From: a virus
Reading direction: 5' to 3' (one strand)
DNA length: 22,721 nucleotides
Virus record (IMG/VR): IMGVR_UViG_3300047478_000350
Span: 1-22,721 of that record
The notes under the pieces: generated by a model
Seen by the model: the letters and a program-made list of their open reading frames with translations, nothing else
Databases searched by the model: none
Told to the model about the DNA's origin: nothing
Program-made: the position numbers and the translations under genes
Shown here: positions 1,574 through 21,846 of the stretch, piece by piece
Layout of the letters: each line of letters begins with the position of its first letter
Position numbering within the stretch: position 1 is the first letter of the stretch

Positions 1574-2446
1574 ATGAGGAAAAATATTATACTTTCAATA
1601 TCAGTTTGTTTAATAATAGCAGTAGTTGCAGTTTATTTTTTGGATCGTAAATCTAATAAAACAATATCTAAAAATGATACTGTAAAAGAAAATAAAGTTG
1701 AAAATAAAATTATAGAGGATAAAAAAATAGTAGCCACAAAAGTGAGTTCTACTATGGATTCTAAGAAAATTAAATCAATGGAAAATGAAGAGACTTTAGA
1801 CCGGATATCTAAATCGTCTAATGTAGATAGATACTATAAACGTATGATACAGGGTGCTCATTACATGCTAGATAACCTAGCCAGAACTGGCACTCAAACC
1901 GAAGAGTCTACAAAAATATATCAGATTCTGTTAGCTAGATTCGACAACATAGATCAAGCAATCACTGATTATAAAAATGAGATATCAAAACTCAGTGTTG
2001 AGGAGATCGAGTATATAGATGAAATGTACCAACATCCGTTAGCTATAAAATTCAATACTATTGAAAATAATATTGAGTCAGGCAATAAAGACTATAAAGA
2101 ATATGCGTCTAAATTTTCTGGTATTAAAGATCCTGTTCGAGCCGGTCTCATTAATACATTGATTGATAAATTATCTATGAATGAGCATTCTATTGTTACG
2201 TCGAAAGAAATGATGAATTTAACGACGAAAATCTATAAGAAAAACGTAATGCCTCAAAATGAGACAACAGCAAAATTTATGGATGACTATGCTAAAAAAA
2301 TCGTCTCTATAGAAATAAGTTACAAACTACAAAATTTTTCAGAGCAAGAGTTGAAAGATTTTGTACAAATAAAAACTCAACCTGCAGCAATTAACGAGCA
2401 TAAAATTAAAAATAAACTCATACAAAATACGATGCGATTAGAATGA
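1574..2446 (+). CDS. N-terminally membrane-anchored protein with two DUF2059-like segments
   Basis: A 290-residue protein whose ATG lies one base after the previous stop and without a strong ribosome binding site, so it is probably translationally coupled. Residues 5-23 are a single transmembrane or uncleaved signal segment after M-R-K-N. A lysine- and glutamate-rich linker follows (25-75), then a mostly helical region. Two segments look alike: about 136-165 (L-S-V-E-E-I-E-Y-I-D-E-M-Y-Q-H-P) and about 250-280 (F-S-E-Q-E-L-K-D-F-V-Q-I-K-T-Q-P). Both fit the pattern of an aromatic or leucine, S/T, E-E-L, then a short helix ending in a proline, as in DUF2059-type periplasmic proteins. That match is tentative. 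The protein is expected to face the periplasm or the cell exterior. Confidence 0.65.
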   Translation: MRKNIILSISVCLIIAVVAVYFLDRKSNKTISKNDTVKENKVENKIIEDKKIVATKVSSTMDSKKIKSMENEETLDRISKSSNVDRYYKRMIQGAHYMLDNLARTGTQTEESTKIYQILLARFDNIDQAITDYKNEISKLSVEEIEYIDEMYQHPLAIKFNTIENNIESGNKDYKEYASKFSGIKDPVRAGLINTLIDKLSMNEHSIVTSKEMMNLTTKIYKKNVMPQNETTAKFMDDYAKKIVSIEISYKLQNFSEQELKDFVQIKTQPAAINEHKIKNKLIQNTMRLE

Positions 2447-3538: not shown

Positions 3539-4501
3539 ATGCGATTCAACGAGATATTACATCCTGAAATTCTACTTGGGTTGAGGGGTCAGGAATTAGA
3601 GAGAGTTCTCTATAGAGCTATTATGCCTCACACTAAAATAGTCGATGAGGAACTTTTTTATAATCAGGATATAGAAATAGTAAAAAACCATTTTGATGAG
3701 GGTGAGTATCTTTATTCAAACGTAGTACATTTGTATTTATGCCATAAATTTAAAACTTCAAATAAAAAAATATATAGGTTAGGCAGTGAGCTAGCAACAA
3801 CATTTAAAAATATTAGAGGCCATATACCAGTAGGACTGATACCAATAAAAACTATTTGTTATATTTCTCTACCTAAAAATCTTATAGCCACAGATGATGG
3901 AACTTACTTGACAGGAGCCTATATTTATATAGGTAATTCTGAGAAAGTCCTATCTAGGAAATTATACCAAAAAAATGGTGATGATGTATTATTATGTAGT
4001 TTTATATCTGCTTCTATCGAACCAGAATATATCCAGCTCGTTGGTCCAATATTATCGTTAAACCTGTCCACAAAACCATACAAAAATCAGAGTAGCCAAT
4101 GGCACAATGATGCACTCAACGTGATCGTAAACACTCTCATTTATGTGAATTCATCAGAGCCTCATATCGAGCTAGCACCACCAATACATACATCTCGAAA
4201 ATCAAAAAAAGAGTTGGCTAGACAAAACAAAATAATAAATGAAACGTTATTACCGGTTGATTTTGTCTATAAAAATTTCCATTGCATGAAATATATTGTA
4301 GATGGTTGTCAGGTTGCAGGGCATATGCGTTGGCAAAGGTGTGGAGAAAATTGGTCTAAAGTAAAATTGATATGGATCGATCCACACGAAAGGAAATATA
4401 ATAAATTGTGTCAACTACACCTCCCTAAAGGGAGGAGCTTGAAGGAAACAAAAGCTCTGTTGACCAGAACACTGACAGAAAGGAGAAAAGATTGTCTGTA
4501 A
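3539..4501 (+). CDS. AcrVA2-like protein (possible anti-CRISPR family member)
   Basis: A 320-residue protein with an AGGGG ribosome binding site before ATG 3539. Three blocks remind me of the AcrVA2 family, whose founding member blocks Cas12a by reducing its production: a strand block around 96-115 (I-C-Y-I-S-L-P-K-N-L), a helix around 192-211 ending S-S-E-P-H-I-E, and above all the C-terminal block at 259-283, V-A-G-H-M-R-W-Q-R-C-G-E-N-W then K-L-I-W-I-D-P-H. Homologues with this G-H-x-R-W ... W-I-x-P ending are widespread in phages whose hosts lack Cas12a, so the name need not mean anti-Cas12a activity here. An extra 35-residue basic tail follows the motif. It is the last gene before the structured RNA region. 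Family assignment is from memory of motifs and is moderate. Confidence 0.55.
   Translation: MRFNEILHPEILLGLRGQELERVLYRAIMPHTKIVDEELFYNQDIEIVKNHFDEGEYLYSNVVHLYLCHKFKTSNKKIYRLGSELATTFKNIRGHIPVGLIPIKTICYISLPKNLIATDDGTYLTGAYIYIGNSEKVLSRKLYQKNGDDVLLCSFISASIEPEYIQLVGPILSLNLSTKPYKNQSSQWHNDALNVIVNTLIYVNSSEPHIELAPPIHTSRKSKKELARQNKIINETLLPVDFVYKNFHCMKYIVDGCQVAGHMRWQRCGENWSKVKLIWIDPHERKYNKLCQLHLPKGRSLKETKALLTRTLTERRKDCL
4420..4457 (+). promoter_or_regulatory. two adjacent hairpins at the 3' end of the AcrVA2-like gene
   Basis: CCTCCC-TAAA-GGGAGG (4420-4435) is a perfect 6-bp hairpin, directly followed by GAGCTT (4435-4440) pairing with AAGCTC (4452-4457). There is no U-tract, so these are not terminators. 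They lie inside the coding sequence just before the structured non-coding region and may be a processing or stability element separating messenger RNA from the RNA downstream. Confidence 0.4.
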
Positions 4502-4830
4502 ACGATACTAGAGAAATAGGTACCTTGGGATGTCACCTCAGTCCCCAGCTCTACGGACACCGGCTAAATAATCCTAAAGTGGTAGTGGATAGTGCTTGTG
4601 TCGCTAAAACCTCTGGATATCTGTTCGAGAGGAAGTCGGATTCTGTGGAATACCTTAAAAGCCACAGATACGCACAACTTGGTGTCTCAGCAAGAAATAC
4701 TCAATACGTGGACCAAATGCGTGGAAGCGTAGATTTAGTATTTGTCTCTGAGGCAATCTTGACGGACCGGGGTCGTGCGGCTCCGGCTGGGTCTAGCAGA
4801 GACTTGGATTTCCACCGCACAACATTTTAA
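4492..4830 (+). CDS. doubtful 112-residue ORF overlapping the structured RNA
   Basis: A TTG start at 4492, overlapping the previous stop, has a well-placed AAAGGAG six bases upstream, which favours translation. Against it, the predicted protein resembles nothing I know. The DNA is visibly more G+C-rich than the genes before it. The stretch 4610-4820 is also full of paired segments (TCTGTGG/CCACAGA, AAATACT/AGTATTT, CTCAG/CTGAG, GTGCGG/CCGCAC) that continue past the stop codon without a break. I think it is more likely the 5' part of a structured RNA that happens to be open. A dual coding and RNA role cannot be excluded. Confidence 0.25.
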   Translation: MSVNDTREIGTLGCHLSPQLYGHRLNNPKVVVDSACVAKTSGYLFERKSDSVEYLKSHRYAQLGVSARNTQYVDQMRGSVDLVFVSEAILTDRGRAAPAGSSRDLDFHRTTF

Positions 4831-5042
4831 GAAAGGACGCGGCTCATCCTCGGACTAAAGTCTCGAGGTTTCCGCCGCGAAGAAATTGGATGACAAATTG
4901 GCAGGCTATTTTGTCACTAATTTGTCTCTTTACAGCAGGTTGACACAAGCGCTCCCTACAATCGCTAAGTAACCACTGGGTAACCAATTGAGAAAACTAC
5001 GTATATTTCCCGGGGATTTTGTAAAAAGATATTTTTCATTTT

Positions 5043-5060
5043 CTTACACAATTGTGTAAG
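5043..5060. promoter_or_regulatory. 18-bp perfect palindrome
   Basis: CTTACACAATTGTGTAAG is a perfect palindrome directly after an AT-rich stretch (about 5010-5042) in the middle of the structured region. Such symmetry is typical of a dimeric repressor operator, but as RNA it would fold into a 6-bp hairpin, so it may simply be another helix. I see no convincing -35/-10 pair beside it. Confidence 0.4.
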
Positions 5061-5520
5061 TGTGCAAGTTAGCTGAATGAACCCTTTAAGTTGTTGCTAG
5101 CTTCTTTGAGGGAGATTATTTCAGGGGAGGTCAAAGTTAATTTGTCCAGCATCTTGACCTCCCTCTTTCTGAGGTTCAGAAGGGTCAGCTTTTGGCTTAA
5201 TGATTAACCTTGGCCTACCACCTGATTGACAGTCATTGACTGACAAACGAATACAATCCCCTACCTACCCTTCTTTGGGCTTGTGGTCGATAGCGCCTAT
5301 TGGCTAACCCCCACTCGGCTATCTCTAGGGAAGGAATCAACACACGAATCTAAAAAAAAAGTCGTGTGCTCAGTACACCCCTAGAGCGAATCTCGCCTTG
5401 CTGGTTCTATCTAAATTCGATCGTTGTGGGAGGCCGCCAGACCATTCTAGCCCCTAAACCGTGGCTTGAGCATCCTGCTAGCGCACGATTGGTCCTTTAA
5501 CAATCTCCGGCAGAATTCTC

Positions 5521-5558
5521 CCTCCTAGATTCGTTAGAATCAGGAGGTGAGATGAATG
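5521..5558 (+). promoter_or_regulatory. hairpin masking a strong Shine-Dalgarno sequence
   Basis: CCTCCT (5521-5526) pairs with AGGAGG (5542-5547), and after a one-base bulge GATTC (5528-5532) pairs with GAATC (5537-5541) around the loop GTTA. The right arm is a near-perfect Shine-Dalgarno, with ATG at 5552 and again at 5556. The first ATG opens a 25-codon frame ending at 5629 (M-N-D-W-F-C-L-E-F-G), the second a 60-codon frame running through the inverted repeat. Either translation is gated by the hairpin or the match is only part of an RNA fold. Confidence 0.35.
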
Positions 5559-5654
5559 ACTGGTTTTGTCTTGAGTTTGGCTCCCACAGCGGCTATACGA
5601 ATATATGCGACTGGGGCGGCAGTCCTTAGAAGCTGGTCTAGGCCAGAACCGTCA

Positions 5655-5764
5655 CAGCTCATACATAGTAGGAGCAGGGGAGTCGATTTTTTCGCCTCCC
5701 CATTTTTTTGTCCACTATTCCATAATTTTAGCATATAAACATTTCTCCTACTATGTATGAGCTG
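5655..5764. repeat. 20-bp perfect inverted repeat enclosing a terminator-like hairpin
   Basis: The 20 bases at 5655-5674 are the exact reverse complement of 5745-5764, separated by 70 bases. The spacer holds a separate G+C-rich hairpin with a T-tract at 5677-5709. The arms do not continue past 5655 and 5764, and no target-site duplication is visible, so a mobile element origin is not supported. It could be the long basal stem of an RNA domain, a cruciform, or a recombination or packaging site. Confidence 0.8.
5677..5709 (+). terminator. intrinsic terminator-like hairpin within the inverted repeat
   Basis: GGGGAG (5677-5682) pairs with CTCCCC (5696-5701); inside, CG (5684-5685) pairs with CG (5693-5694) across one mismatch. 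ATTTTTTT (5702-5709) follows. It is competent only on the + strand. If active, the upstream RNA ends near 5709. It sits inside the 20-bp inverted repeat, whose long stem could compete with or hide it. Confidence 0.5.
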
Positions 5765-5974
5765 ATGAGAATTCGCGATAACCAAGCATTAGATTCTCCT
5801 CATAAAAGTTTTGTTCCTAAAAACCAGACTCGGACGGGAGTCTGTGGGTATCCAGTCCCTAGAAGCCCCCACTAAAATTTAGTGGTGGGAGCTGTCACCA
5901 AAATAAGTTGCCGAAAACACTCCCGTGTGGCAAACCTCGTCTCGATAAAAAGAGTAACTAGCAAAACCAAAAAT

Positions 5975-6016
5975 AGAGACCTTAGTAAGTTATGCCTACC
6001 GGGGTCTCTTTTTTTT
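5975..6016 (+). terminator. intrinsic terminator, possibly bidirectional
   Basis: AGAGACC (5975-5981) pairs with GGTCTCT (6003-6009), followed by eight T residues (6009-6016) on the + strand. On the opposite strand the same stem is followed by ATTTTT, so it could also stop late transcription coming from the right. It marks the likely 3' end of the structured RNA. Confidence 0.7.
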
Positions 6017-6059
6017 AGAACTACAATTTGACCTACTGAAATTAATATGGTTTATACAT

Positions 6060-6192
6060 CTTCACGCTCCCTGACGGCGTATCAGGGGGCCAGAGGCATT
6101 CGGTGTACATCTAATGTCTCACGATTTGAGCGTGTACATACTTCAAATCAAACTAAGCTAGGAAAGGAGCAATCTGATCCTGGCTTTTTTTT
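6060..6192 (+). ncRNA. possible small RNA gene with its own promoter and terminator
   Basis: Between two terminators, 6017-6192 has no ORF. CACGCTC (6063-6069) pairs with GAGCGTG (6128-6134), enclosing the hairpin CCCTGA (6069-6074)/TCAGGG (6082-6087) and CTCA/TGAG near 6118-6130. A clean terminator follows at 6156-6192. Upstream, TTGACC (6028-6033) and a weaker copy (13 of 15 bases) of the repeated promoter-like motif lie at 6045-6059, though the -35/-10 spacing is not ideal (18-19 bases). About 130 nucleotides long. Could also be 3' read-through sequence of the large RNA. Confidence 0.35.
6156..6192 (+). terminator. intrinsic terminator facing the late operon
   Basis: AGCTAGGA (6156-6163) pairs fully, with one G-T wobble, with TCCTGGCT (6178-6185), followed by eight T residues (6185-6192). 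The T-tract overlaps the stop codon of the - strand transglycosylase gene. It would stop + strand transcription exactly at the border of the late genes. Confidence 0.65.
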
Positions 6193-6682
6193 AGTCTTTT
6201 TTTGTTCGATATAATTTTAGAGATACCATAACCCGGTCTACATATTTTTGATTATAGTAACTAGTATCTCGTTTTTTCATCGCACTCAATCCACCATTAT
6301 ACCCGGCAAATATAGCCTCTTCCTCTTGCGTGTAGCCCTTGAGTAACGCGATATATTTGCACATGTGCTCTATGTTTAGATCTGGTTTCAGTAGCTCTGT
6401 TAGAATGCCTAAAAACCCCTGCTGTCTAGCAAGCGCACCCATGACCTGTCCTAACCCCCAGCTCATTTTCTGATTCGATATTTCAGTCGATAGTGTACTG
6501 TTTGTCCCTCTGATGAATTTTACCGGAGTACATAGATAGTTGTAATCCGGCTCGTATCTCACGGCCCACGGGTTCCAAGCGCTCTCTTGACTAATAATAG
6601 CTCGTATCCAGTCTGAATCAATTCGATAGATCCTGGCCTTTTGTACAATGATACTATCGAATTGAGATTCAGTATAGATCAC
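6191..6682 (-). CDS. lytic transglycosylase (SLT-like), virion-associated or endolysin
   Basis: A 163-residue enzyme predicted to cleave peptidoglycan glycan strands. Visible SLT-type motifs: the catalytic glutamate E33 in I-S-Q-E-S-A-W-N-P-W-A, the S-W-G-L-G-Q-V-M block at 74-81, and A-G-Y-N-G-G at 126-131 followed by Y-V-D-R-V-M. There is no signal peptide. It is the last gene of the late operon, after the fibre genes, and its start overlaps the previous stop as ATGA. The place at the end of the tail genes fits either a host-lysis enzyme or a virion enzyme that opens the wall at entry. I see no holin beside it on this strand. Confidence 0.85.
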   Translation of the reverse strand: MIYTESQFDSIIVQKARIYRIDSDWIRAIISQESAWNPWAVRYEPDYNYLCTPVKFIRGTNSTLSTEISNQKMSWGLGQVMGALARQQGFLGILTELLKPDLNIEHMCKYIALLKGYTQEEEAIFAGYNGGLSAMKKRDTSYYNQKYVDRVMVSLKLYRTKKD

Positions 6683-8010
6683 TGATACTCATCCCAAGTT
6701 AGGCCACCGAACGTAGCCGTATTTCCAGCGGTACTTTGTACAGTGACCGTGAATATATCACCCGTAGTACCGGCAACATCAAATCCAAGATTTGCAATTC
6801 CTCTGATACAACTCAAATCGAGTGAACCTCCGGCCGATGAATCGACTTGAGACTCATATATCAAAGAACCGCCCGTCAATGCCGAGGCCGCGATATCGAA
6901 ATTAGTAGCGCTATTAGATGCAGGTGCTGCATTGAATGTTGGCGAGGTTAGTGTAGCATTTAGATAGCCTCTTACGATTACAGCAACACTCGCACTACTA
7001 ATATCTAACTGTCTAGGTATGATCGGAATTCGATTAGCTACACCATTGAATGTTGTTTTAGGTTGAATACTAATGAGGGGTATTTCTGTAGTCCCCGCGG
7101 TTACTGATGTTCTCCCGCGAGTAGCTCCGAATGAATACGGTGCAGTTGAGGCGATCCCCCCACCCTCTTTTAGGACCGTAGCACACACCATTTTCATTGT
7201 AGTTGCACTAGCCGAGACACCTGTATTCGTCATTTCAAAACGGACTGGGAGTTGAGGAGTGAGGCAGTAGGGAAGTGCGAGGCTATTCGCATTTAGAAAT
7301 CGATGACAATAAACAATCCCATCGTCTAAAATAATTCCCATGCGTACAGTCCCGGTCCCCTGCCAAACGTACTCAATGATAAAACCTTGGTGATTAGCCT
7401 CACTTAATGTGACTCCGCTTGCACCGGTTCCATCTAATTTATCGAGGTTCCAGTTTGCTTGTGCAACTCTAGTATTTACAGCGGATCCACTTGAGGATGT
7501 TCTTTGAACTACTGCTATGTCGGTTCCGGTTTGTTCCCAGTATGGACCGTCTAAAGCATCGAATAGTCCAAATCGTTTTCTAACATTTGTTTTTTTAGCT
7601 CCAATATTTCCCGTCGCAAAAATAGTATGAGCATCCCCTGGGCTGTATGGAATTCTTTTCCTAGTTTGATAAATAATACTATCCCCAGATGCTGTACCCA
7701 CGGCTAGATCTAATGTCCCGGTTGTTGCGTTATATGTAGCAGTGCCAGTACCAGATGAGGAGCTATTAAAATACAGGGGATGGATACCGTGTGAGAAATA
7801 AAGACCGAAAATAATTTCAGGGGATACGGCTCTTAACCGCCCGTAGCCATCAAGTTGAGAGCCTTTATTGAGTGAAACATTTATCCCTCGGTCAGTTCCA
7901 TGGAGTGTAGAGCTAATAGGGTTTCCTGCACCATCGTGAAAATTATTTCCTATACCTGTTTTTATAGATTGGTCTAGTTGGTTTAGATCTGTAGAAAGTA
8001 AATTACTCAT
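6679..8010 (-). CDS. minor structural protein, probably tail- or fibre-associated
   Basis: A 443-residue, G/S/T-rich beta-type protein. The N-terminal segment with D-G-Y-G-R-L-R-A-V-S-P-E-I-I-F-G (about 54-69) matches a phage structural protein family that carries a G-R-L-R-V-S-x-P-x-T-L-F motif before a beta-sandwich body. Residues about 110-290 look like a jelly-roll or lectin-like domain with several aromatic residues; the C-terminal part (330-443) is a second beta domain. Located between the collar fibre and the transglycosylase, so it is likely exposed at the tail tip. Its exact role is unknown. Confidence 0.6.
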   Translation of the reverse strand: MSNLLSTDLNQLDQSIKTGIGNNFHDGAGNPISSTLHGTDRGINVSLNKGSQLDGYGRLRAVSPEIIFGLYFSHGIHPLYFNSSSSGTGTATYNATTGTLDLAVGTASGDSIIYQTRKRIPYSPGDAHTIFATGNIGAKKTNVRKRFGLFDALDGPYWEQTGTDIAVVQRTSSSGSAVNTRVAQANWNLDKLDGTGASGVTLSEANHQGFIIEYVWQGTGTVRMGIILDDGIVYCHRFLNANSLALPYCLTPQLPVRFEMTNTGVSASATTMKMVCATVLKEGGGIASTAPYSFGATRGRTSVTAGTTEIPLISIQPKTTFNGVANRIPIIPRQLDISSASVAVIVRGYLNATLTSPTFNAAPASNSATNFDIAASALTGGSLIYESQVDSSAGGSLDLSCIRGIANLGFDVAGTTGDIFTVTVQSTAGNTATFGGLTWDEYQ

Positions 8011-8021
8011 ATTATTCCCCT

Positions 8022-8864
8022 CTAATTGATACGAATGAAAATATTTACTGTAACATTCCTAGGTGCTGTTTCACTCGATCCGGTCGTATCGTTAGTTATC
8101 CCTGTAATTTGAGATACAATTGTTATCCCGGTCAACCCCGTGTTTATAGTAATGGCCGTATTGGTTGGGTTCATAGAGATAGTAGTAGCAGTTGAATTTA
8201 CGTTTCCTGGACCGGTTGCATATTCAGTTACTCCTCCGGGTATATTATAACCATCACCGCCAGTGAGATACCCAGAATCCGGTCCTGTAGAGTACGGATC
8301 TATATAAATAGTTTGAATACCATGTTGATGACCAATCGGACTGAATGTGTGTGAATGAGGGTTATTGTTTACAGCATGAACGTGTGTTGGGTCTGTAATA
8401 CCGTGATTATGGCTCGGGTCTGTAACTGTATGAGTATGCCCTGGGTCTGTGATCGTATGAGTATGAGATAAAAACCGATCTGCCGTGTAGGTCCCCACTG
8501 CTAAATCACCGTCTGGGTTACCAGTGCCAGTTGATCTAGCTCCATTTTTACTACGTAAAAATATCCCTCTTAAATCTGGGATTGTAGAGCTACCTGTCAG
8601 AGTTGCGTAACCGCTACCTGCTACATTCCGTCCATCAGCGATCACCCACGTGTTAGCGTGGGAATTAGTACCTGGATTGAGGCACTGAGTATTAAACGTA
8701 GTCTCATCTAACATTGAATGAACTATCGAACCTAGGGGTAATACAATATGTCTGAGATAGTTAGTGAGAGCTGCGATCGCAGTAATCGATGCCTCACTCA
8801 CCGCTTGGTTGAACTGAATACTAGGTTGTTGAATTGGTTGTGAGCTATCTGCTACATCTGCCAC
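8022..8864 (-). CDS. tail collar-domain fibre protein with six HxH motifs
   Basis: A 280-residue fibre protein. Residues about 40-108 form a phage tail collar domain (L-P-L-G-S-I-V-H-S, then W-V-I-A-D-G-R-N-V, then P-D-L-R-G-I-F-L-R-S-K-N-G). It is followed by an exactly periodic ladder of HxH motifs at residues 134/136, 143/145, 152/154, 161/163, 170/172 and 179/181. In T4-type long fibres HxH motifs bind metal ions along the trimer axis. The C-terminus, S-E-T-A-P-R-N-V-T-V-N-I-F-I-R-I-N, is the usual end of collar-type fibres. Probably trimeric and receptor-facing. Gaps to both neighbours are about ten bases. Confidence 0.85.
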   Translation of the reverse strand: MADVADSSQPIQQPSIQFNQAVSEASITAIAALTNYLRHIVLPLGSIVHSMLDETTFNTQCLNPGTNSHANTWVIADGRNVAGSGYATLTGSSTIPDLRGIFLRSKNGARSTGTGNPDGDLAVGTYTADRFLSHTHTITDPGHTHTVTDPSHNHGITDPTHVHAVNNNPHSHTFSPIGHQHGIQTIYIDPYSTGPDSGYLTGGDGYNIPGGVTEYATGPGNVNSTATTISMNPTNTAITINTGLTGITIVSQITGITNDTTGSSETAPRNVTVNIFIRIN

Positions 8865-8873
8865 TAGTTCCCC

Positions 8874-11390
8874 CTAATCATACCTGTAGTACCCTAAATG
8901 ATCATTAAACCCTAACCCCTCGACAAAATAAGTACTGTCTGGAGTTAATCCTAAATCGTCACACGTGACAAGCGTTCCTGCAATGCTAACAATTTTAACT
9001 TCATTACTCGTTGTGTTGTAATCGGTCGCTCTAACATAAATGTAATTGTCCGGAATGAATTTGGATGCGTCTGATATATTAATATTAAACTGAGTTCCAG
9101 ATACCCCTGATGTTATTGCTACCGTCGGTGAATAATGAGCATAGAGAGTTTTGTAGAGGTTATCTGTGAGTGGGTTTACATCACTCGGATACGGTACGAT
9201 ATCCATGATGTATCCAGATCCCGGTGTAAAACTGAGGGCCGGTGTAACTTGAATAGCAGTCGGATCACTCGGGTCAATCCCAACGATCGTTGCAGTCCCC
9301 TGAACACTGTAATCGTATGAGTGAACATTTACATCTAATCCAATAAATGGGGTCCATTTTGTTAGCTCATTTGTGATATCCGATTGTCCAAAACTGGGGG
9401 TTACTCTCATACTCGTTGTTGTACATCCTGCATTGAGTATTGTAGAGGGTGAGTAAAGACCATACCGAGCATTTACATTAAATCCTAGACCGCCTAATAG
9501 TTTTAGTTTCACATTTCCAGCTGAAACATTAAATGTTCTATCGGTAACCTCAAACATTTGAGAACCTAGGTTACGTTTCCCAGTTTCGAAATTCATTATT
9601 TTCAGATCACCGTTATCATTGAGTAGTACAATATCTGAGACCTCAATGAGTGAGCCGACACTCCACTGAACAGTTACATCAATTACGATTGCACAGTTTT
9701 TATATCGCCTTAAAAGTGCAGTTGACCTCTGGTTAATAATGTTAGCTCCACCTAGGCTATCTGTTCTAATACCTGGAGCATTGATCGGAAGAATATTTAA
9801 TTGGTTAAAATTATTGAGTGAATCGGTATCTAGAAAATACTGAATAGTACTATAATTATCAGTACCGGGTTTTTTATCAAACTGGAATGAAATGAGATTG
9901 AAAAATGTTCTTGAGTTAGTAGACCGAGTAATAGAAATATTTTGAGGGTCAATGACTGTGTCTTTGTCTAATGTAACTAGTTTCCCAATGCCTGGTAATG
10001 GAGGCTTTGCAATCGACATTGAGATACGTCCAAATCGTGAGACGCCATAACATCCCATCGGGAGTGATATATCCGTATCAATTGCGTCTTTTGCTTGTAT
10101 TGCAGCTGAATAAAAAATGGAGATATTAGAATTACCAGTATTAAAATAATTGGCTTTTATGAGTTGAAATGTTGAAACGTCTACATCTCTCATCCTACAT
10201 TTAGCACCCGCCGTGATCGGTAATGTATCGTACTGAGACCTGAATGAAGTCAGAGCACTGCTAGTCAATTCAAGAGTGAACGTTTGGTTAGTAAATATAA
10301 TTACGTTTTTTGGATAAACAGTTGGGTCATTTATTTGAATATTAGTGATACGTCCACTTAAATTGTTAGCCGGGTTAGTAGCCCCTGTAATATAAAAATA
10401 ATCACCCTCGGTTAATCCTAGGTCCTCAAATGCATCTAATGTTTTTAATACAAAAACACTCGTATCATTAACAGATAGTTTAGGATTAAATCCGAATGAA
10501 TCAATTGATACATCCGTCTCACAAGGCCCATTCCACCCGGATAAAAGAATTTTTAGAATGAGGTCTATGAAATGAATACCTGTAAAAATATCACCGAATT
10601 GGATAGCGTTATGGACCTCAGTGCCATGTTCATGATTTACTGCTATCGTATCAAGACTTGCTCTAACCATTTCAATTCGGTTGTAGGCCGGGTAGTCTAC
10701 AACTTTCATCCATTCCTCATTCACATGAATGTAAGTTGTAACAGTTGGGTCATAGTTTCCATCCGGACCTAGTATAGGTTTATGAAACCCGATATGGCCG
10801 TTCACGTGGAGGAGCGTATCTATGTTATCAATATCGGTAGTGATGGACACGGTTGGGGTATTACAGATGGGTTGCCTTTTTTTAGTCGTTCCATCTGATA
10901 TCTGAAATTTAACTAGTCCTGGAGGGCATACTATCTGTGAAATATAACCTCGGTAAATGAGTAAATAATCAACTGGGAAACTAGTCTGAGTAAATCCTAA
11001 ATAGAGCCTAACCTCTTTACTCATCATGATTTCATCTACAACTATACCCGGTGCTATGACCTGAGATACCTCTCCGTTCTTGTCAATGAGAGTAATATTA
11101 ATAGTCCCAATATTTCCCTTCCCCTGTTCAGGTTCTATTTTTTGAGAAATGGTTAGACCGGTATCTAGTACGATATACGGTTTTACATTATTGATTAGTT
11201 TTAGAGCACCATAAACTAAGCCTGGGAGCCCATATACTAAACCCGCATCACCGTATCGAACTGTTTTGTATGTAGCACCAATCCCGTAAATATCTGATAC
11301 ACCCTCAATCTGCATTAACAGTGAAACGTTTTTAGACGCCTGTGAGTTGAAGAGCAAATATTTATCTGGATAGTTTCCAAAACTCGCCAT
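8874..11390 (-). CDS. large tail-tip or baseplate hub-like protein
   Basis: An 838-residue beta-rich protein with no clear family motif. The first 170 residues, with K-P-Y-I-V-L-D-T-G-L-T-I-S-Q-K-I and R-G-Y-I-S-Q-I, resemble the start of tail-hub proteins where a beta domain follows a surface description of ring strands. Later segments (about 340-420 and 640-838) are repetitive beta modules with many D, N, T and S residues. It starts in a TAATG overlap with the stop of the upstream fibre gene. Size and position, after the tape measure and before the terminal fibres, fit a Tal or hub role, but this is inference. Confidence 0.55.
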   Translation of the reverse strand: MASFGNYPDKYLLFNSQASKNVSLLMQIEGVSDIYGIGATYKTVRYGDAGLVYGLPGLVYGALKLINNVKPYIVLDTGLTISQKIEPEQGKGNIGTINITLIDKNGEVSQVIAPGIVVDEIMMSKEVRLYLGFTQTSFPVDYLLIYRGYISQIVCPPGLVKFQISDGTTKKRQPICNTPTVSITTDIDNIDTLLHVNGHIGFHKPILGPDGNYDPTVTTYIHVNEEWMKVVDYPAYNRIEMVRASLDTIAVNHEHGTEVHNAIQFGDIFTGIHFIDLILKILLSGWNGPCETDVSIDSFGFNPKLSVNDTSVFVLKTLDAFEDLGLTEGDYFYITGATNPANNLSGRITNIQINDPTVYPKNVIIFTNQTFTLELTSSALTSFRSQYDTLPITAGAKCRMRDVDVSTFQLIKANYFNTGNSNISIFYSAAIQAKDAIDTDISLPMGCYGVSRFGRISMSIAKPPLPGIGKLVTLDKDTVIDPQNISITRSTNSRTFFNLISFQFDKKPGTDNYSTIQYFLDTDSLNNFNQLNILPINAPGIRTDSLGGANIINQRSTALLRRYKNCAIVIDVTVQWSVGSLIEVSDIVLLNDNGDLKIMNFETGKRNLGSQMFEVTDRTFNVSAGNVKLKLLGGLGFNVNARYGLYSPSTILNAGCTTTSMRVTPSFGQSDITNELTKWTPFIGLDVNVHSYDYSVQGTATIVGIDPSDPTAIQVTPALSFTPGSGYIMDIVPYPSDVNPLTDNLYKTLYAHYSPTVAITSGVSGTQFNINISDASKFIPDNYIYVRATDYNTTSNEVKIVSIAGTLVTCDDLGLTPDSTYFVEGLGFNDHLGYYRYD

Positions 11391-13636
11391 TAGTCTCCTA
11401 TTTTATGGATAGAACAGTAAACATTTACTGCATTAGTGTGTAGTGCTTTATTAGTACCGTTATTCTGGAATGCTCTGAAATCTATATAATCACCCGCTGT
11501 TAATAGAATGTCATCATTGATACTCGTACTCACTACTGCACCACCTATAGGTTGCGCGAAATTAGATACCTGAGATCCATTTTTAAAAAGTCTTATATCG
11601 AACTCCCCAACCGCTGGAGTGAAATTCTGGACATTTATACAGGCCTTGCAATTATATCTAGCTGTAATAGGTGCCGTGAATTTCCAAGAGGCTCCCGTGG
11701 TCACCGCGCTAGCAGTGTCATATGTTTGAGTTTCGAAATCGACGATAGCAAACGTTGTATTATTAACAATAGTTTGCCCCGCTGTAGATGTATATCTAGC
11801 TGCTATTACCTCACTAGTTGCCCATTTAATACCTGTTGATTGAGTAGAATCGGCAACTAGATATTGACCGTTAGATCCAACCGCTAGTCTATCCGCGGTA
11901 TTAGATCCATTCCCAACCATCAAATCACCCTTGGTTGTGATCGGTGTACTGAATTCAATATTTTGTGAACTTTGGGTTGCAGTTAAACCCTTAGTCGCGC
12001 TGAGAGTTACATCACCGGTTAATGCAGTTTGTCCACTCGCTGCAATCGTTTGAATCATGGCCGCCCATTCAACGCCTAGCGATTGAGCAGAGTTTGCTCG
12101 GAGCATTTGATTATTAGATCCAACCCCTAATCTATTAGCGGTATTAGTTCCAGATCCAACCATGAGGTCGCCCTTGGTTGTGATGGGAGTACTGAACTCG
12201 ATGTTCTGTGAAACCTGAGTAGCAGTGAGGCCTTTTGTTGCACTAAGAGTTACATCGCCTGTCAGTGCAGTTTGTCCGCTAGCTGCGATCGTTTGAATGA
12301 CCGTTGCCCATTCAAGACCTGTCGATTGTGCAGAGTTTGCCCGAAGCATTTGGTTATTAGAACCAACACCTAAACGTGACGAGGTATTAGATCCATTCCC
12401 AACCATCAAATCACCCTTGGTTGTCAGTACGGTTGATAACGCTACATTCTGGCCAGTCTGAATGCCCTGAATACCATTCGTTGCGCTAATGGTAGCGTCT
12501 CCAACTAATGCCGTTTGACTGAGCAATGAGAATGAATGGAGCCCTACATGTACATGGTCTTCTTTAGCGGATTTTAACGATGTCCCTAAGGATACGGTTG
12601 CAGCTACAGGATTTGGATTGAACGTAGCGAGAGGCGGTGCATACCCCGTTTTAGTAGCCCCCGTATCAGTCCAGACAAATCCTCCACTCGCGGCTAGTGT
12701 GATATCACCAAATGCTTGTCCCCCACCTGCATCGATAGATCTAACCCCTTTATGTGTGTGATCTGAATTTGAAACGGTACCATTTGCAGTTCCCGCAGAA
12801 CCACTGGATGCGATATCTGTTGGGGTTCCTGTAGATAAAATTGTTTTACCGTATAAACTGCTAGTCGCTTGGATTATATTAGAAGTAGAATTAGATGACT
12901 TGAGTTGCAACTCCTCTGCATAAACAGATGGAGCCGATAACGGGTTAAATAATTCCTGGTAGTACCATTTGAGGTTAGGGGAACCACTAAATGAATATGC
13001 AGTCTCGGTCGAGGAAACGAGTGAATAGTAACTCAAGGTCCAGGTGCCAGCGGAAAACGTTACACGCCCATAGACCAGATTCCCATTTGCATCCACAATG
13101 TCTTGCCCACCGTTTACGCCCGAGATATAAAATAGATTCACTTTGTTGTTGGGGGATGTGGTTGATACACCGGGGGTTGTGGAGTTAGTTGAAGCAGATT
13201 TTCCACTCATTAACGACGTGATATCTGTACTAGTTCCAGTAGCTGAACTAATTTGAGAACCGAGTTGTATGTATCCGAGCAGAGGGACTGCAGCAATATT
13301 TACAGCATTTACAGGAGTCCCGTCCCCCGCTGCCCCTGTGTGTTTATGACCTGTACTCGGATCAAATTTATTTGCCAGTTCTGTTAATGCAGTTAAATGA
13401 GAATCACCATTTATAATAGTTGATGCTGTAGCATTGTATAGTGTCCCAGTTGCCGATTCACTCGCACCGGTTGCAGTGTAGAGTTTATTAACCGCTGCTT
13501 GAATGTCAGAAATAGTTGCCCCAGATAGTGCCCGAGCAAATGAGAGTATATTTGCCATGGTGTCATTAGTATTTTTATTAATGAACGCTGGGTTAGTTAC
13601 CGTTGCACTAACCGCCTGTCCGTCAACCACTCCCAT
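11390..13636 (-). CDS. tail fibre with TTKGD repeats and C1q-like C-terminal domain
   Basis: A 748-residue fibre protein with a GGAGG ribosome binding site. The first 110 residues are a helical attachment region ending in D-P-S-T-G-H-K-H-T-G-A-A-G, and a second H-T-H-K motif follows near residue 290. From about residue 405 come three tandem units starting T-T-K-G-D-L-M-V-G, two of 81 residues and one truncated. Each carries L-G-V-G-S-N-N-Q-M-L-R-A-N-S and G-D-V-T-L-S-A-T-K-G. The last 136 residues (613-748) look like a C1q/TNF-type jelly roll (N-C-K-A-C-I-N-V-Q, L-F-K-N-G-S, A-G-D-Y-I-D-F-R), a common receptor-binding head. Likely a homotrimeric side or tip fibre. Confidence 0.8.
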   Translation of the reverse strand: MGVVDGQAVSATVTNPAFINKNTNDTMANILSFARALSGATISDIQAAVNKLYTATGASESATGTLYNATASTIINGDSHLTALTELANKFDPSTGHKHTGAAGDGTPVNAVNIAAVPLLGYIQLGSQISSATGTSTDITSLMSGKSASTNSTTPGVSTTSPNNKVNLFYISGVNGGQDIVDANGNLVYGRVTFSAGTWTLSYYSLVSSTETAYSFSGSPNLKWYYQELFNPLSAPSVYAEELQLKSSNSTSNIIQATSSLYGKTILSTGTPTDIASSGSAGTANGTVSNSDHTHKGVRSIDAGGGQAFGDITLAASGGFVWTDTGATKTGYAPPLATFNPNPVAATVSLGTSLKSAKEDHVHVGLHSFSLLSQTALVGDATISATNGIQGIQTGQNVALSTVLTTKGDLMVGNGSNTSSRLGVGSNNQMLRANSAQSTGLEWATVIQTIAASGQTALTGDVTLSATKGLTATQVSQNIEFSTPITTKGDLMVGSGTNTANRLGVGSNNQMLRANSAQSLGVEWAAMIQTIAASGQTALTGDVTLSATKGLTATQSSQNIEFSTPITTKGDLMVGNGSNTADRLAVGSNGQYLVADSTQSTGIKWATSEVIAARYTSTAGQTIVNNTTFAIVDFETQTYDTASAVTTGASWKFTAPITARYNCKACINVQNFTPAVGEFDIRLFKNGSQVSNFAQPIGGAVVSTSINDDILLTAGDYIDFRAFQNNGTNKALHTNAVNVYCSIHKIGD
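11816..12424 (-). repeat. 243-bp tandem repeat in the tail fibre gene
   Basis: Three in-frame units with an exact 243-base (81-codon) period start at 12424, 12181 and 11938 on the - strand; the third stops after about 41 codons. Around the T-T-K-G-D start, units 1 and 3 are identical in nucleotide sequence while unit 2 differs at several synonymous sites. Confidence 0.85.
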
Positions 13637-13649
13637 GATATACCTCCAT

Positions 13650-14438
13650 TCAAACGCTCGTTACAAACTGAGACGCCGATAGTACGATTCGAAATTTCAT
13701 TAACCCGGTCTGATATCTATTTGGAAAATTAGGTAGCATCTCAGACATTTGAAACCCCAACCCCCTGCCATCGTACGTAGTGTTCTCAAGAGTCACATTA
13801 TATACAGTATCTGGAAAACTAACTTCAGGGGTGAATTCAAACGGTCGTTGCTGAATAGACCAAATAAAAAACGGGTACCATATTAGTTGCAATCTTGTTT
13901 TAGTCTCATACATGAAATTTACTGTTATAAATTTTTGAATATTAAATGTAATAGATTCTTTAACACCGGATGCGGATACATTTACAGCACCAAACACTTT
14001 AGCCGTATTGATATCGTCAGTATAATTGTATCCTATATAATCCGGCAAAAACGACGTTCCGGCAGTACTACTCGATGTATAGTTTGTTGAACCTGTATAA
14101 TCACTCTGATTGAAACCGGCGATTGAGGCAACACTATTAGATACGTTAGTACCACTCCCAAATAGTATAGATAAAAATGATCCATCCGTTTGGATCTTGA
14201 TTCTATTTTGTGTACCACCTGAAATATTTCTTAGTACAGTTACAGTATATATATGAGTTGGATCCGCTGCAGTCATAGCTACAGATATCTCTGTAGCTAA
14301 CTCACCCACTGAATAAAACCCAGCTGTTAACTGCGCATGGAGTTCACTACCCCCACCTGATATTTTAAAATCAATACTACCATTCAGCGGAGTAATCTGA
14401 ATACCGTAAACGAATAAACTTTGAGCACTAAGCGCCAT
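13650..14438 (-). CDS. tail-tip protein, distal-tail-like position
   Basis: A 262-residue beta-rich protein directly after the tape measure gene, with which it shares a TAATG overlap. In siphophages this slot normally holds the distal tail protein that caps the tube and links it to the hub. The N-terminal stretch (about 10-60, with N-G-S-I-D-F-K-I-S-G-G-G and E-L-A-T-E-I) resembles modules seen in virion proteins of environmental phages. The C-terminal half has a run of aromatic residues (W-Y-P-F-F-I-W). No family is firmly recognised; the role rests on position. Confidence 0.5.
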   Translation of the reverse strand: MALSAQSLFVYGIQITPLNGSIDFKISGGGSELHAQLTAGFYSVGELATEISVAMTAADPTHIYTVTVLRNISGGTQNRIKIQTDGSFLSILFGSGTNVSNSVASIAGFNQSDYTGSTNYTSSSTAGTSFLPDYIGYNYTDDINTAKVFGAVNVSASGVKESITFNIQKFITVNFMYETKTRLQLIWYPFFIWSIQQRPFEFTPEVSFPDTVYNVTLENTTYDGRGLGFQMSEMLPNFPNRYQTGLMKFRIVLSASQFVTSV

Positions 14439-16648
14439 TATTTAACCCCAATTTTGTTATACGTGAAATCAGTAGCATCGGTTTCCTGTCTAATGAGTTC
14501 GACTATTGTCCGTTGGGTCTCCGAGGTGTTAAATAGATTGCCAGCGATGTTCACAACTACGGATCTGGAAAGAGTTGGGTTTTGTTGCATGTCAGGGGTA
14601 GCGGTATTGCTAGGGAGAACTTCTTGTTGAGCAATAGCAGCTTGTGCAATTTCAGTTGAAGTTGCGGGTCCAGTTATAGTTGGTTCAACCTCTGATTTTG
14701 TTTCCTTCATTTTGTCTATAGCAATAGCAGCACCTGCAGAAGCCGCTGCATGTATTGCTGGATTAAATTCAGCTGAGCTAGATGTAATTGTAACAGGGAC
14801 CCCTACCCCACCAGAGGTTCCAACACCGCCTCCTACAGCACCGGCGGCGGTAGTCCCAGTCCCCCCAGCTAGCCCTCTTAATGCACCTGCTATAGCAAAT
14901 AATCCTACACCCTGAGCAATAGCGATTGGGTTCCAAGATCCGATTCCTTGAGCAATCAGAACTTTCGCCCATGCCTCTGCATAGTCAGCAATCATATTTA
15001 GAAATACTGATTTCATCGCATCAGCTGCAGCTGTAGCAATATCAGCGCCCTTGGCTATAGAATCGCCCATAGTTTCAAATGCGGATTGAGTATGATTCTG
15101 AAGAGAGGTCATGGCAATAGTACCAAATTTTCCAAACTCTTGCATGTCATGTGTGGCTTGGATACCCATAGATTCAGCTGCTCTAGTGATACCCTCAAAT
15201 GCATTTGTAGAGTTATTTACATAGGCGTCTAGTGCCTTCTTTTTCTGTTCATATAATGCCTTATCTCTAGCCGTTTCGCCTTCTTTATACGCAATATCTA
15301 ATTGAGCTAGTAATTGTGTTTTCTGTTTACCATCTGCAAATGTAGCTTGTTCAAGAGCGGCTCTTTTATTCTTATATTCAGTAGCATTAAGTGTTTTTTG
15401 TTTTGTTGCTATTGTGTCTATGTCTGAAAGTTTTTTAACCCCTGCTATACTTGCAGCGATAGATTCTTTATTAATATTTATAAGTTCTTTTTCATATGCT
15501 AATTTAGCTTTTGCTTTTAGCGCATCGTCTTCATACTTTTTCTTAGATACTGTTGCAGCTTCTTGATCAGTTTTAATTTTTTCTTTAGCGGCTAACTCTG
15601 CTTTTTCACTAGCAGTCATGGCGGCTTTTTCAGCTTCCTCCATGGCATCAAGTTGCATTTTCAATGATATTAATCTAGACGATGTTTTAGCAACTAAATC
15701 GTCTTTTCCAAAAAAATCGGCCTTCTTTTGTAATTCCTCAAACTCTTTAGTTGTTTCTCTAATTTGCTTTTTAACAATATTCATTTTCTCGGAAGCACTA
15801 TCTGCATCACTTCCAAGCGTAATGACAAGAGTTTCCTTCATCGCACTAGCTAATGAATTTAAGCCCGTCAAACTAGCTCTAACTGCATTCCCAAATATTT
15901 TATCAAATGTTAAAGCGGTGACCTCACCAAACTCATTCATGGTTGTTTTTAACAACTGCATGTTAGAGGTAGCGGTAGTTAAATCAACATCTATTCCCTT
16001 TAGTCTAGTCTGCCCAGCTTCTAGTAAACCATTTAGAATGGCTTGTTGTTTGCCAGCTAAGTTGATACTGTCTACAGCTAAATTTTGTTCTTTTGCAAAA
16101 CTTTTAACTGCTTTTTCAGCGTCGAAGTAAAGGCCGTACTGTTTTAATATACGGGTATTGCCACCTTCTACTGCTCTAATAATATCATTAAATACACTTA
16201 TGGTATCGCCGCCATAAACTTGGCTTGCCTTCCTGGCGATCTCCATTATTTTTGGTATTTGATCACCAGCAGAACCTAATGATACTAACGCTTTATTAGC
16301 AGTTTGCATTAGGTCTGTGTTATCAACAAGACCTAGCCCGACTTCATCTAAACCAGCTTTTAATACATCTGTATTTACTCCAGCTTGTTTAGTGAGAATT
16401 TCAAACTGTTTATTTATTTTCTGAATACCTTCAGCTTCTAGGGTTAAATCTAACGACTCTTTAAATGAGAATATAATAGCCATAGCACCCCCTAGTATCG
16501 GTGCTATTTTCTCTAACCCTGACAAAAGGCCCTTTAAGTGATGTTCTTCCCCCAATTCTTTAACTTTATCTATAGCTTTTTCAGCTTTATCGACAAAATC
16601 AATAGAGTCTAGGTCTAATCTAAATGATAGTAATTCCTCATCAGCCAT
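14438..16648 (-). CDS. tape measure protein
   Basis: A 736-residue, mainly alpha-helical protein setting tail length. Evidence is its position right after the chaperone pair, its size, long coiled-coil regions (about 290-470, rich in K, E and A), hydrophobic segments near 50-70 and 560-620, and a glycine/alanine-rich stretch (A-G-G-T-G-T-T-A-A-G). From the usual 0.15 nm of tail per residue, a tail of about 110 nm would be expected. The first eight bases overlap the end of the GT extension. No lysozyme or peptidase motif is visible within it. Confidence 0.85.
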   Translation of the reverse strand: MADEELLSFRLDLDSIDFVDKAEKAIDKVKELGEEHHLKGLLSGLEKIAPILGGAMAIIFSFKESLDLTLEAEGIQKINKQFEILTKQAGVNTDVLKAGLDEVGLGLVDNTDLMQTANKALVSLGSAGDQIPKIMEIARKASQVYGGDTISVFNDIIRAVEGGNTRILKQYGLYFDAEKAVKSFAKEQNLAVDSINLAGKQQAILNGLLEAGQTRLKGIDVDLTTATSNMQLLKTTMNEFGEVTALTFDKIFGNAVRASLTGLNSLASAMKETLVITLGSDADSASEKMNIVKKQIRETTKEFEELQKKADFFGKDDLVAKTSSRLISLKMQLDAMEEAEKAAMTASEKAELAAKEKIKTDQEAATVSKKKYEDDALKAKAKLAYEKELININKESIAASIAGVKKLSDIDTIATKQKTLNATEYKNKRAALEQATFADGKQKTQLLAQLDIAYKEGETARDKALYEQKKKALDAYVNNSTNAFEGITRAAESMGIQATHDMQEFGKFGTIAMTSLQNHTQSAFETMGDSIAKGADIATAAADAMKSVFLNMIADYAEAWAKVLIAQGIGSWNPIAIAQGVGLFAIAGALRGLAGGTGTTAAGAVGGGVGTSGGVGVPVTITSSSAEFNPAIHAAASAGAAIAIDKMKETKSEVEPTITGPATSTEIAQAAIAQQEVLPSNTATPDMQQNPTLSRSVVVNIAGNLFNTSETQRTIVELIRQETDATDFTYNKIGVK

Positions 16649-20559: not shown

Positions 20560-21846
20560 TTAACTCGTTACTGAACCATCGTTCCCTTGCCAAGCAAATC
20601 GTGGATCAATGTGATCAGCGTTTGCCCTCAATGAGAGTTTGAATCTAATAATATCTCGGTTAAATGATTCCCCAGCAGTTGGGGATTCTTGTTCTATTAA
20701 AGCGGCCTGCCTGATTTGCGTAATAAACCATGGCTTTTTATCATCAACTAGGTACCAGGCTTTCGAGGTTCCATCGACTGTAGCGTCATTCTTAAACATG
20801 AAACGAGTCACGGTTAGAGCTGCAATTGATTCGATGGGATTGATTGCAAAACTATTCCCCGTAGTACCTGCAGTACCCGTTACTGAATTAGAGGGATAGA
20901 ATGAGGAGTTCAGTAATACAGCTGCATCGAATCTAAATGCTGGCCCTATGATCAATCGGTTAGGGTCTACACTCATTTTTAACCCTAAGAGATTTTTCTG
21001 ATTCATGAGCCCGATGAACGAAGCCTGTACCGCTGCTTGAGTCAGAATGGTGTACGAGCTGGGTCGATTAGCACCACCCCCCACTAACGATGTACTCCAC
21101 GGGTAGTTAGTCTCGGTCGACGGTTTAGTTTCAGTATTTGGAATGCTTAGGGTTGAATAGTTAGCAACTGCACCGCCTGTAAACACCCCGGCTAGTTTCG
21201 CATAGGTCATTGCCTCAAGCGCCAGCTTTGCGTACTCACCAAGGAGACTAGCTTGCTGAGCAAATTGTCCCGTTTGGTCATCCTCTAGAAGTCCCTTTTC
21301 GATTGGATAGATCACACCATATTTACGATTGATCAATTTAATATCTAACCCAGCTGCTCTACTCTCTGGATATAATTCCTGGGATCCAACCTCGCTTAAA
21401 AATGATAACCCATGCAGTGGTGCATAGAGTTCCTCACGTTTTGTACTATTTACAGTTTTAGTCCACGATTCAAACGTTGTGGGTACGGTCTGATAACTCG
21501 AATTCACTAACGTCTGAACACCGGCTCGAAGTACCTGAACGAATGAGCTAGATGAATCTGCCTCTTGGAATGCGACATCAACCGATGGACACCCGCATTT
21601 TTGAGCGACCTTGTTCCAATTAAATGAGTCTTCATGAACAGGGAACGCATTTTTATCTGCGAAATCAATTCCCTGTTTTCTCTTAAAACTCTCACGCATG
21701 TATTTTATTTCTTTAGACTCCCAAAGATTTTTCTCAATGCGTTTTGTATTTTCCTCTTTAGCTTCATTTACTAACACTGTTTTATTACGTGAATTAGTCC
21801 ACGCATTACTCTCAGACATTTTTTTAATTTCAGATAGAGTTAGCAT
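20560..21846 (-). CDS. major capsid protein
   Basis: A 428-residue protein. The C-terminal block F-K-L-S-L-R-A-N-A-D-H-I-D-P-R-F-A-W-Q-G-N-D-G-S is typical of HK97-fold capsid proteins in many environmental and Mu-like phages. The first 60 residues are charged and helical (scaffolding-like or N-arm); a cysteine pair (C-G-C) lies near residue 84. It is flanked upstream by a decoration-like protein and a scaffold or protease end, as expected. No insertion or break is apparent. A promoter-bearing gap follows, so this gene may end one transcription unit. Confidence 0.9.
   Translation of the reverse strand: MLTLSEIKKMSESNAWTNSRNKTVLVNEAKEENTKRIEKNLWESKEIKYMRESFKRKQGIDFADKNAFPVHEDSFNWNKVAQKCGCPSVDVAFQEADSSSSFVQVLRAGVQTLVNSSYQTVPTTFESWTKTVNSTKREELYAPLHGLSFLSEVGSQELYPESRAAGLDIKLINRKYGVIYPIEKGLLEDDQTGQFAQQASLLGEYAKLALEAMTYAKLAGVFTGGAVANYSTLSIPNTETKPSTETNYPWSTSLVGGGANRPSSYTILTQAAVQASFIGLMNQKNLLGLKMSVDPNRLIIGPAFRFDAAVLLNSSFYPSNSVTGTAGTTGNSFAINPIESIAALTVTRFMFKNDATVDGTSKAWYLVDDKKPWFITQIRQAALIEQESPTAGESFNRDIIRFKLSLRANADHIDPRFAWQGNDGSVTS

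Follow-up and report, generated by a model that had tools for sequence, protein, structure and literature searches.

An ORF-less HEARO element and an adjoining structured non-coding locus in a phage

What is the structured, non-coding stretch that stands between two oppositely oriented gene blocks of this phage, and is it one feature or more than one? The window analysed here, by which we mean the whole of a 22,721-bp virus record, carries plus-strand genes on its left side, including those for an Erf-like annealing protein and an SSB, and minus-strand late genes on its right side, including those for an SLT-domain endolysin (6191-6682), tail and virion structural proteins (6679-8864) and the major head protein (20560-21846). 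A sequence-only reading had described 4503-6016 as a single feature, a large phage RNA. The non-coding structure that it described is present, but the feature begins at 4410 and comprises two unrelated pieces. We consider it probable that these are nested: a non-autonomous HEARO/OMEGA element at 4410-4888, and a phage non-coding RNA locus at 4890-6192 that the element interrupts. The novelty rests with the second of these, an orphan candidate RNA locus, the HEARO part belonging to a known family.

The feature has a G+C content of 0.44-0.48, which is rich in comparison with the early genes to its left (0.30-0.37), as had been noted from the sequence, but not in comparison with the late genes to its right (mostly 0.40-0.48). 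The closest IMG/VR relatives of the capsid protein, contigs of the phage itself aside, are at most 72% identical, and the closest among annotated phage records is only 23% identical; in a host search, the protein matched only phage-like contigs in a Cytophagales MAG. Elsewhere in the window, internal repeats of ~243 nt that are 75% alike occur at 11817-12424, within a structural gene of 748 aa (11390-13636), and 1063-1572 encodes a 169-aa protein that starts like a signal peptide, has a hydrophobic stretch rich in Cys and is without a Pfam or PHROG match.

The HEARO element and its ends

HEARO RNA is the omegaRNA of the IscB/IsrB nucleases, of which the IscB type is the ancestor of Cas9. An IscB or IsrB gene usually lies downstream, but this is not obligatory, and ORF-less loci are known. 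A cmscan search placed a full-length match to the HEARO model (Rfam RF02033, positions 1-211 of 211) at 4410-4640 on the plus strand, with 93.7 bits against a gathering threshold of 83 bits and an E value of 2.8e-18. Pairing is canonical in 55 of the 67 consensus pairs of this omegaRNA scaffold of the IscB/IsrB OMEGA family, which starts 93 nt before 4503, inside the ORF upstream, at its 3′ end. In IscB omegaRNAs, the guide consists of the 16-17 nt that immediately precede scaffold base G1 (PMC9640706). By position, the ~16 nt directly 5′ of scaffold base 1 (4394-4409, plus strand) would be the guide segment of the window copy, taken from the flanking gene; at the same place, L057, from a second contig of the same phage (IMGVR_UViG_3300043431_000439; L045, L057 and L062), reads GCGTCGCATAGGTCGC.

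Comparison with this second contig defines the element to the base. L057 is 100% identical to window 4410-14682, over 10,273 nt, and its left flank is wholly different, with the switch exactly at 4410, which is HEARO position 1. In window orientation, L057 starts with a 43-nt copy of the right end of the element (ATCCTCGGACTAAAGTCTCGAGGTTTCCGCCGCGAAGAAATTG), followed by tATGA; this second right end (L045/L057) is identical to that of the window up to 4888, differs at 4889 and continues with ATGA. We infer the body of this second copy from the 43 nt at the contig end. Both ends are fixed by the left-flank switch at 4410 and the right end of the second copy, giving an ORF-less mobile element of ~479 nt on the plus strand (4410-4888), base 4889 being ambiguous. 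Directly 3′ of the element stands gATGA (4889-4893), a TAM-like motif that is tATGA at the other copy; IsrB nucleases depend on a TAM of the NTGA type (PMC9581776).

The ends carry IS200/605-type hairpins with a CTAAAG loop in both, the left one at 4420-4435 (CCTCCCTAAAGGGAGG) and the right one at 4838-4879 (CGCGGC..CCTCGGACTAAAGTCTCGAGG..GCCGCG). The left end, at the same place and with the same loop, recurs in L058, L060 and L061, and also in L059, which bears HEARO together with an IscB gene. The right end resembles that of L059, where a hairpin is followed by GGTCTCCCGCGC and then ATGA, and the right-end hairpin is found twice in L062. The scaffold thus stands at the left end of the element, the flank takes the place of the guide, and NATGA follows both right ends. 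We conclude that 4410-4888 is a phage-borne HEARO element of a known family and that its boundaries are unusually clear.

No trace of IscB, TnpB or any other protein was found in the element by ORF, Pfam and tblastn searches, and the IscB of L059 had no significant tblastn match in the window or in the L057 flank. No associated IscB/IsrB gene stands downstream of HEARO, where no ORF has a Pfam match, and TnpA, like IscB/IsrB, is absent both from the element and from the phage sequence at hand. Against 395 genomes of one phylum, the element gave just chance matches of 28-35 nt. The possibility that a decayed IscB/TnpB or other gene fills 4641-6190 was also considered and was unsupported by tblastn and Pfam. 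A further virus contig, L060, holds an ORF-less HEARO-type element at 1760-2166 (minus strand), with the left-end motif and the right-end hairpin ~400 nt apart and no RF02033 match above threshold.

The structured locus beyond the element

The first third of the large RNA that had been proposed is therefore HEARO, and the part of the proposal that stands is the remaining 1.1-1.3 kb, which is structured, non-coding and terminator-bounded and has no credible Rfam match. The suggested division near 5000-5060 is replaced by one at 4888/4893, where the HEARO element ends. The absence of a credible ORF was borne out, as the longest open frame in 4890-6190, at 82 codons, is shorter than the median of 90 for Markov sequences, and no Pfam match reached the cut-off.

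Folding was compared with dinucleotide shuffles, for which coding controls gave mean z-scores of -0.1 (plus) and -0.8 (minus). The plus and minus strands scored -4.2 and -3.2 over 4889-5300, -3.6 and -5.2 over 5301-5712, and -3.4 and -1.1 over 6017-6192, and the plus strand scored -2.9 over 5713-6016. The DNA in which the sequence-only reading saw plus-strand helices thus folds far better than shuffles, on both strands, and the nested hairpin at 5323-5386 is present with 25-nt arms. Over 4889-6016 the minus strand equals the plus strand in folding strength, and only terminator polarity favours plus. A low folding energy does not by itself establish that a gene for an RNA is present, and the minus strand is about equally well folded. 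T runs of at least six number four on the plus strand and one on the minus strand. Three of these runs end terminator-like hairpins, near 5709, 6016 and 6192, which an automated terminator scan missed because their loops are long. A plus-strand RNA is favoured because of terminator polarity together with helix strength.

These plus-strand terminators delimit three candidate units. The 3′ part of unit 1 (4890-5709) has no ORF beyond chance and no credible Rfam match, and ends in an intrinsic-terminator-like GGGGAG..CTCCCC followed by T7 (5677-5709, T run 5703-5709). Its 5′ part would be the ~240 nt that lie beyond element copy B in L057 (10875-11120, minus strand); this far side (10875 to ~11120) is non-coding, with long helices and sliding-window z-scores down to -3.8 (plus) and -4.9 (minus). 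Unit 2 (5710-6016) is closed by arms at 5969-5981 and 6003-6015 plus T8, the U8 terminator at 6016 that had been read from the sequence, and a perfect 20-bp inverted repeat spans 5655-5764 (arms 5655-5674 and 5745-5764). Unit 3 (6017-6192), a small structured RNA candidate, ends in GCTAGGA..TCCTGGC T8 at 6157-6192. In L057, a promoter-like TTGACT-18-TATTAT, a consensus match only, points into the locus, towards the element. When the flanks of the second site are joined, a hairpin re-forms across the junction, weakly (P 0.03-0.4, by flank length). The 14-nt motif CAGTCCYTAGAAGC occurs in units 1 and 2 (5620-5633 and 5853-5866, 93% alike), as an RNA motif or by chance.

Relatives of the locus were sought widely. 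The Rfam search proposed in the sequence-only reading, run on 4300-6250 with E up to 5, returned just HEARO, over its threshold, and a spurious rli47, with no GOLLD, ROOL or OLE; group I/II introns and tmRNA had no match (Rfam/ARAGORN), nor did the L057 side of the locus match Rfam at a loose threshold. No tRNA genes were found in the window, L057 or L080. The proposed homologue search came back empty for 4890-6192: there were none for 4890-6200 in phage or plasmid records or in ~1.9 Mb of relatives (nhmmer --max), two 16-mer seed scans of IMG/VR gave chance matches in long open frames only, and 395 genomes of one phylum gave matches of 28-45 nt only, read as chance or terminator-like. In related phages, the endolysin lies just ~230-310 nt from a 69-aa gene; of the related virus records that were searched, only that of L057 has HEARO. 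Because the relatives have this short gap and no HEARO, the DNA at this position is an addition.

A new large RNA, a small-RNA cluster and a functionless remnant are all possible for 4890-6192. That it forms, together with the ~240 nt beyond copy B, a large (~1-1.4 kb) phage non-coding RNA of a new class, or three such RNAs, invaded by a guide-RNA-only OMEGA element is a proposal that we put forward tentatively, holding it at less than even confidence. The locus might instead be a leftover without function, made of decayed DNA or mobile-element remnants; its hairpins would then be former element ends and terminators, not parts of one RNA. Such an origin would account for its absence from this position in relatives, for folding on both strands and for the lack of homologues, and the region does draw insertions (the HEARO copies and, in L057, an HTH_Tnp_1 fragment). 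However, the long helices are still well paired, three terminators share the plus strand, z-scores reach -4/-5 against shuffles, and neither a protein remnant nor a second HEARO match is present, and we regard a mere leftover as unlikely.

Two copies and the junction in the window

The two right ends, with different next bases before ATGA, imply at least two insertions. In L057, the right end of copy A is followed by a plus-strand gene whose product begins MNQIF.., and by minus-strand genes for HTH_Tnp_1, RusA, a lipoprotein and the 69-aa protein; then come ~285 bp of non-coding DNA, HEARO copy B, the 1.3-kb region and the endolysin. Homologues of the 69-aa protein and the lipoprotein adjoin the endolysin in related phages, so L057 has the normal late order. 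In L057 the locus does not lie between early and late genes, as it had seemed to from the window: in that contig it falls within the late block, flanked by the endolysin and the 69-aa gene. The late region of this phage also holds an orphan HTH_Tnp_1 gene, IS3-type and orfA-like (L045 11656-12000).

The junction in the window can be read in the same terms. The final 30 codons of the ORF at 3539-4501 come from the HEARO left end and do not belong to the native gene. When copy A is removed with the element end at 4888, gene 3539 stops at codon 292 in ATGA, and that ATGA also gives the start of MNQIF.., a usual stop/start overlap; the native gene thus probably ended at about codon 291/292 in this overlap. 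The restored overlap fits two direct copies ~1.94 kb apart. At 4409/4410, against 10874/10875 in L057, the window is without these 1.94 kb, which hold RusA along with lysis-type genes (the lipoprotein and the 69-aa gene). To judge from this arrangement, the window probably joins the two direct copies that flank them, through a recombination deletion or an assembly collapse.

The different left flank of L057 could itself be an artefact of assembly, in a phage with a single HEARO copy, given that the contigs come from a short-read metagenome and that one ends 43 nt into the repeat. We consider this improbable: both left sides are phage-like, the 69-aa and lipoprotein homologues stand beside the endolysin in relatives, and two right ends with different next bases and ATGA require two copies.

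Possible mobility and comparison with known systems

In the nested arrangement that we favour, a Y1 TnpA supplied in trans would move the element to sites 5′ of NATGA. There the scaffold would be transcribed from the flank, ~16 nt of which would become the guide, and an IscB or IsrB, likewise supplied in trans, may cut or nick the unoccupied allele, which offers both the guide match and ATGA. Such cutting of the empty allele would favour retention and spread of the element. The phage has at least two direct copies, and these can recombine with each other. The locus at 4890-6192, with the ~240 nt beyond the element in L057, would give one to three plus-strand transcripts next to the endolysin, interrupted by copy B.

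Standalone omegaRNAs are able to work with IscB in trans (PMC9581776), and the scaffold here retains 55 of 67 consensus pairs, so that the phage might have co-opted the copies to guide a host IscB in trans; they would then serve against competing phages or mobile elements instead of promoting their own spread. This strikes us as very unlikely, as both guides are simply the insertion-site flanks, which is what a mobile element would give, nothing in the window closely matches guide B, and no partner protein was identified. A single continuous GOLLD/ROOL-like giant RNA across 4503-6016, for which the size, the lack of ORFs and the dense folding along the whole stretch would speak, can be all but dismissed. 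It is contradicted by the junction at 4410 and the ends at 4888; the opening 480 nt belong to a mobile HEARO element, which has ends of its own and a further copy at another site; and neither a GOLLD/ROOL match to E 5 nor tRNA genes are present.

The window element resembles the HEARO family (RF02033) of ISC/IS200-605 elements in its full-length model match and in the scaffold at its left end, and shares end hairpins and a 3′ ATGA with the IscB-bearing element of L059. Unlike typical members, it is without IscB/IsrB or TnpA, lies in a phage and is present in two direct copies. With the standalone trans-acting omegaRNAs it shares the lack of a nuclease gene of its own; it differs in that its ends, two insertion sites and its place in a phage have been documented, whereas trans activity is putative.

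GOLLD and ROOL are RNAs of phages and prophages (PMC12286853). The orphan locus is like them in being non-coding, ~1 kb long, dense in predicted structure and located in a phage. It differs in having no model match at E 5 and no homologues, and it would have several terminators on the plus strand; GOLLD and ROOL are often near tRNA islands, whereas the orphan locus has none. The locus is nevertheless a concrete candidate for a further class of large phage RNA, classes whose functions are unknown. Beside it stands a base-exact OMEGA guide-RNA element, travelling in a phage without a protein gene, at two insertion sites with matching TAMs, and protein-less guide elements of this kind bear on the spread and trans action of IscB-type (pre-Cas9) guides.
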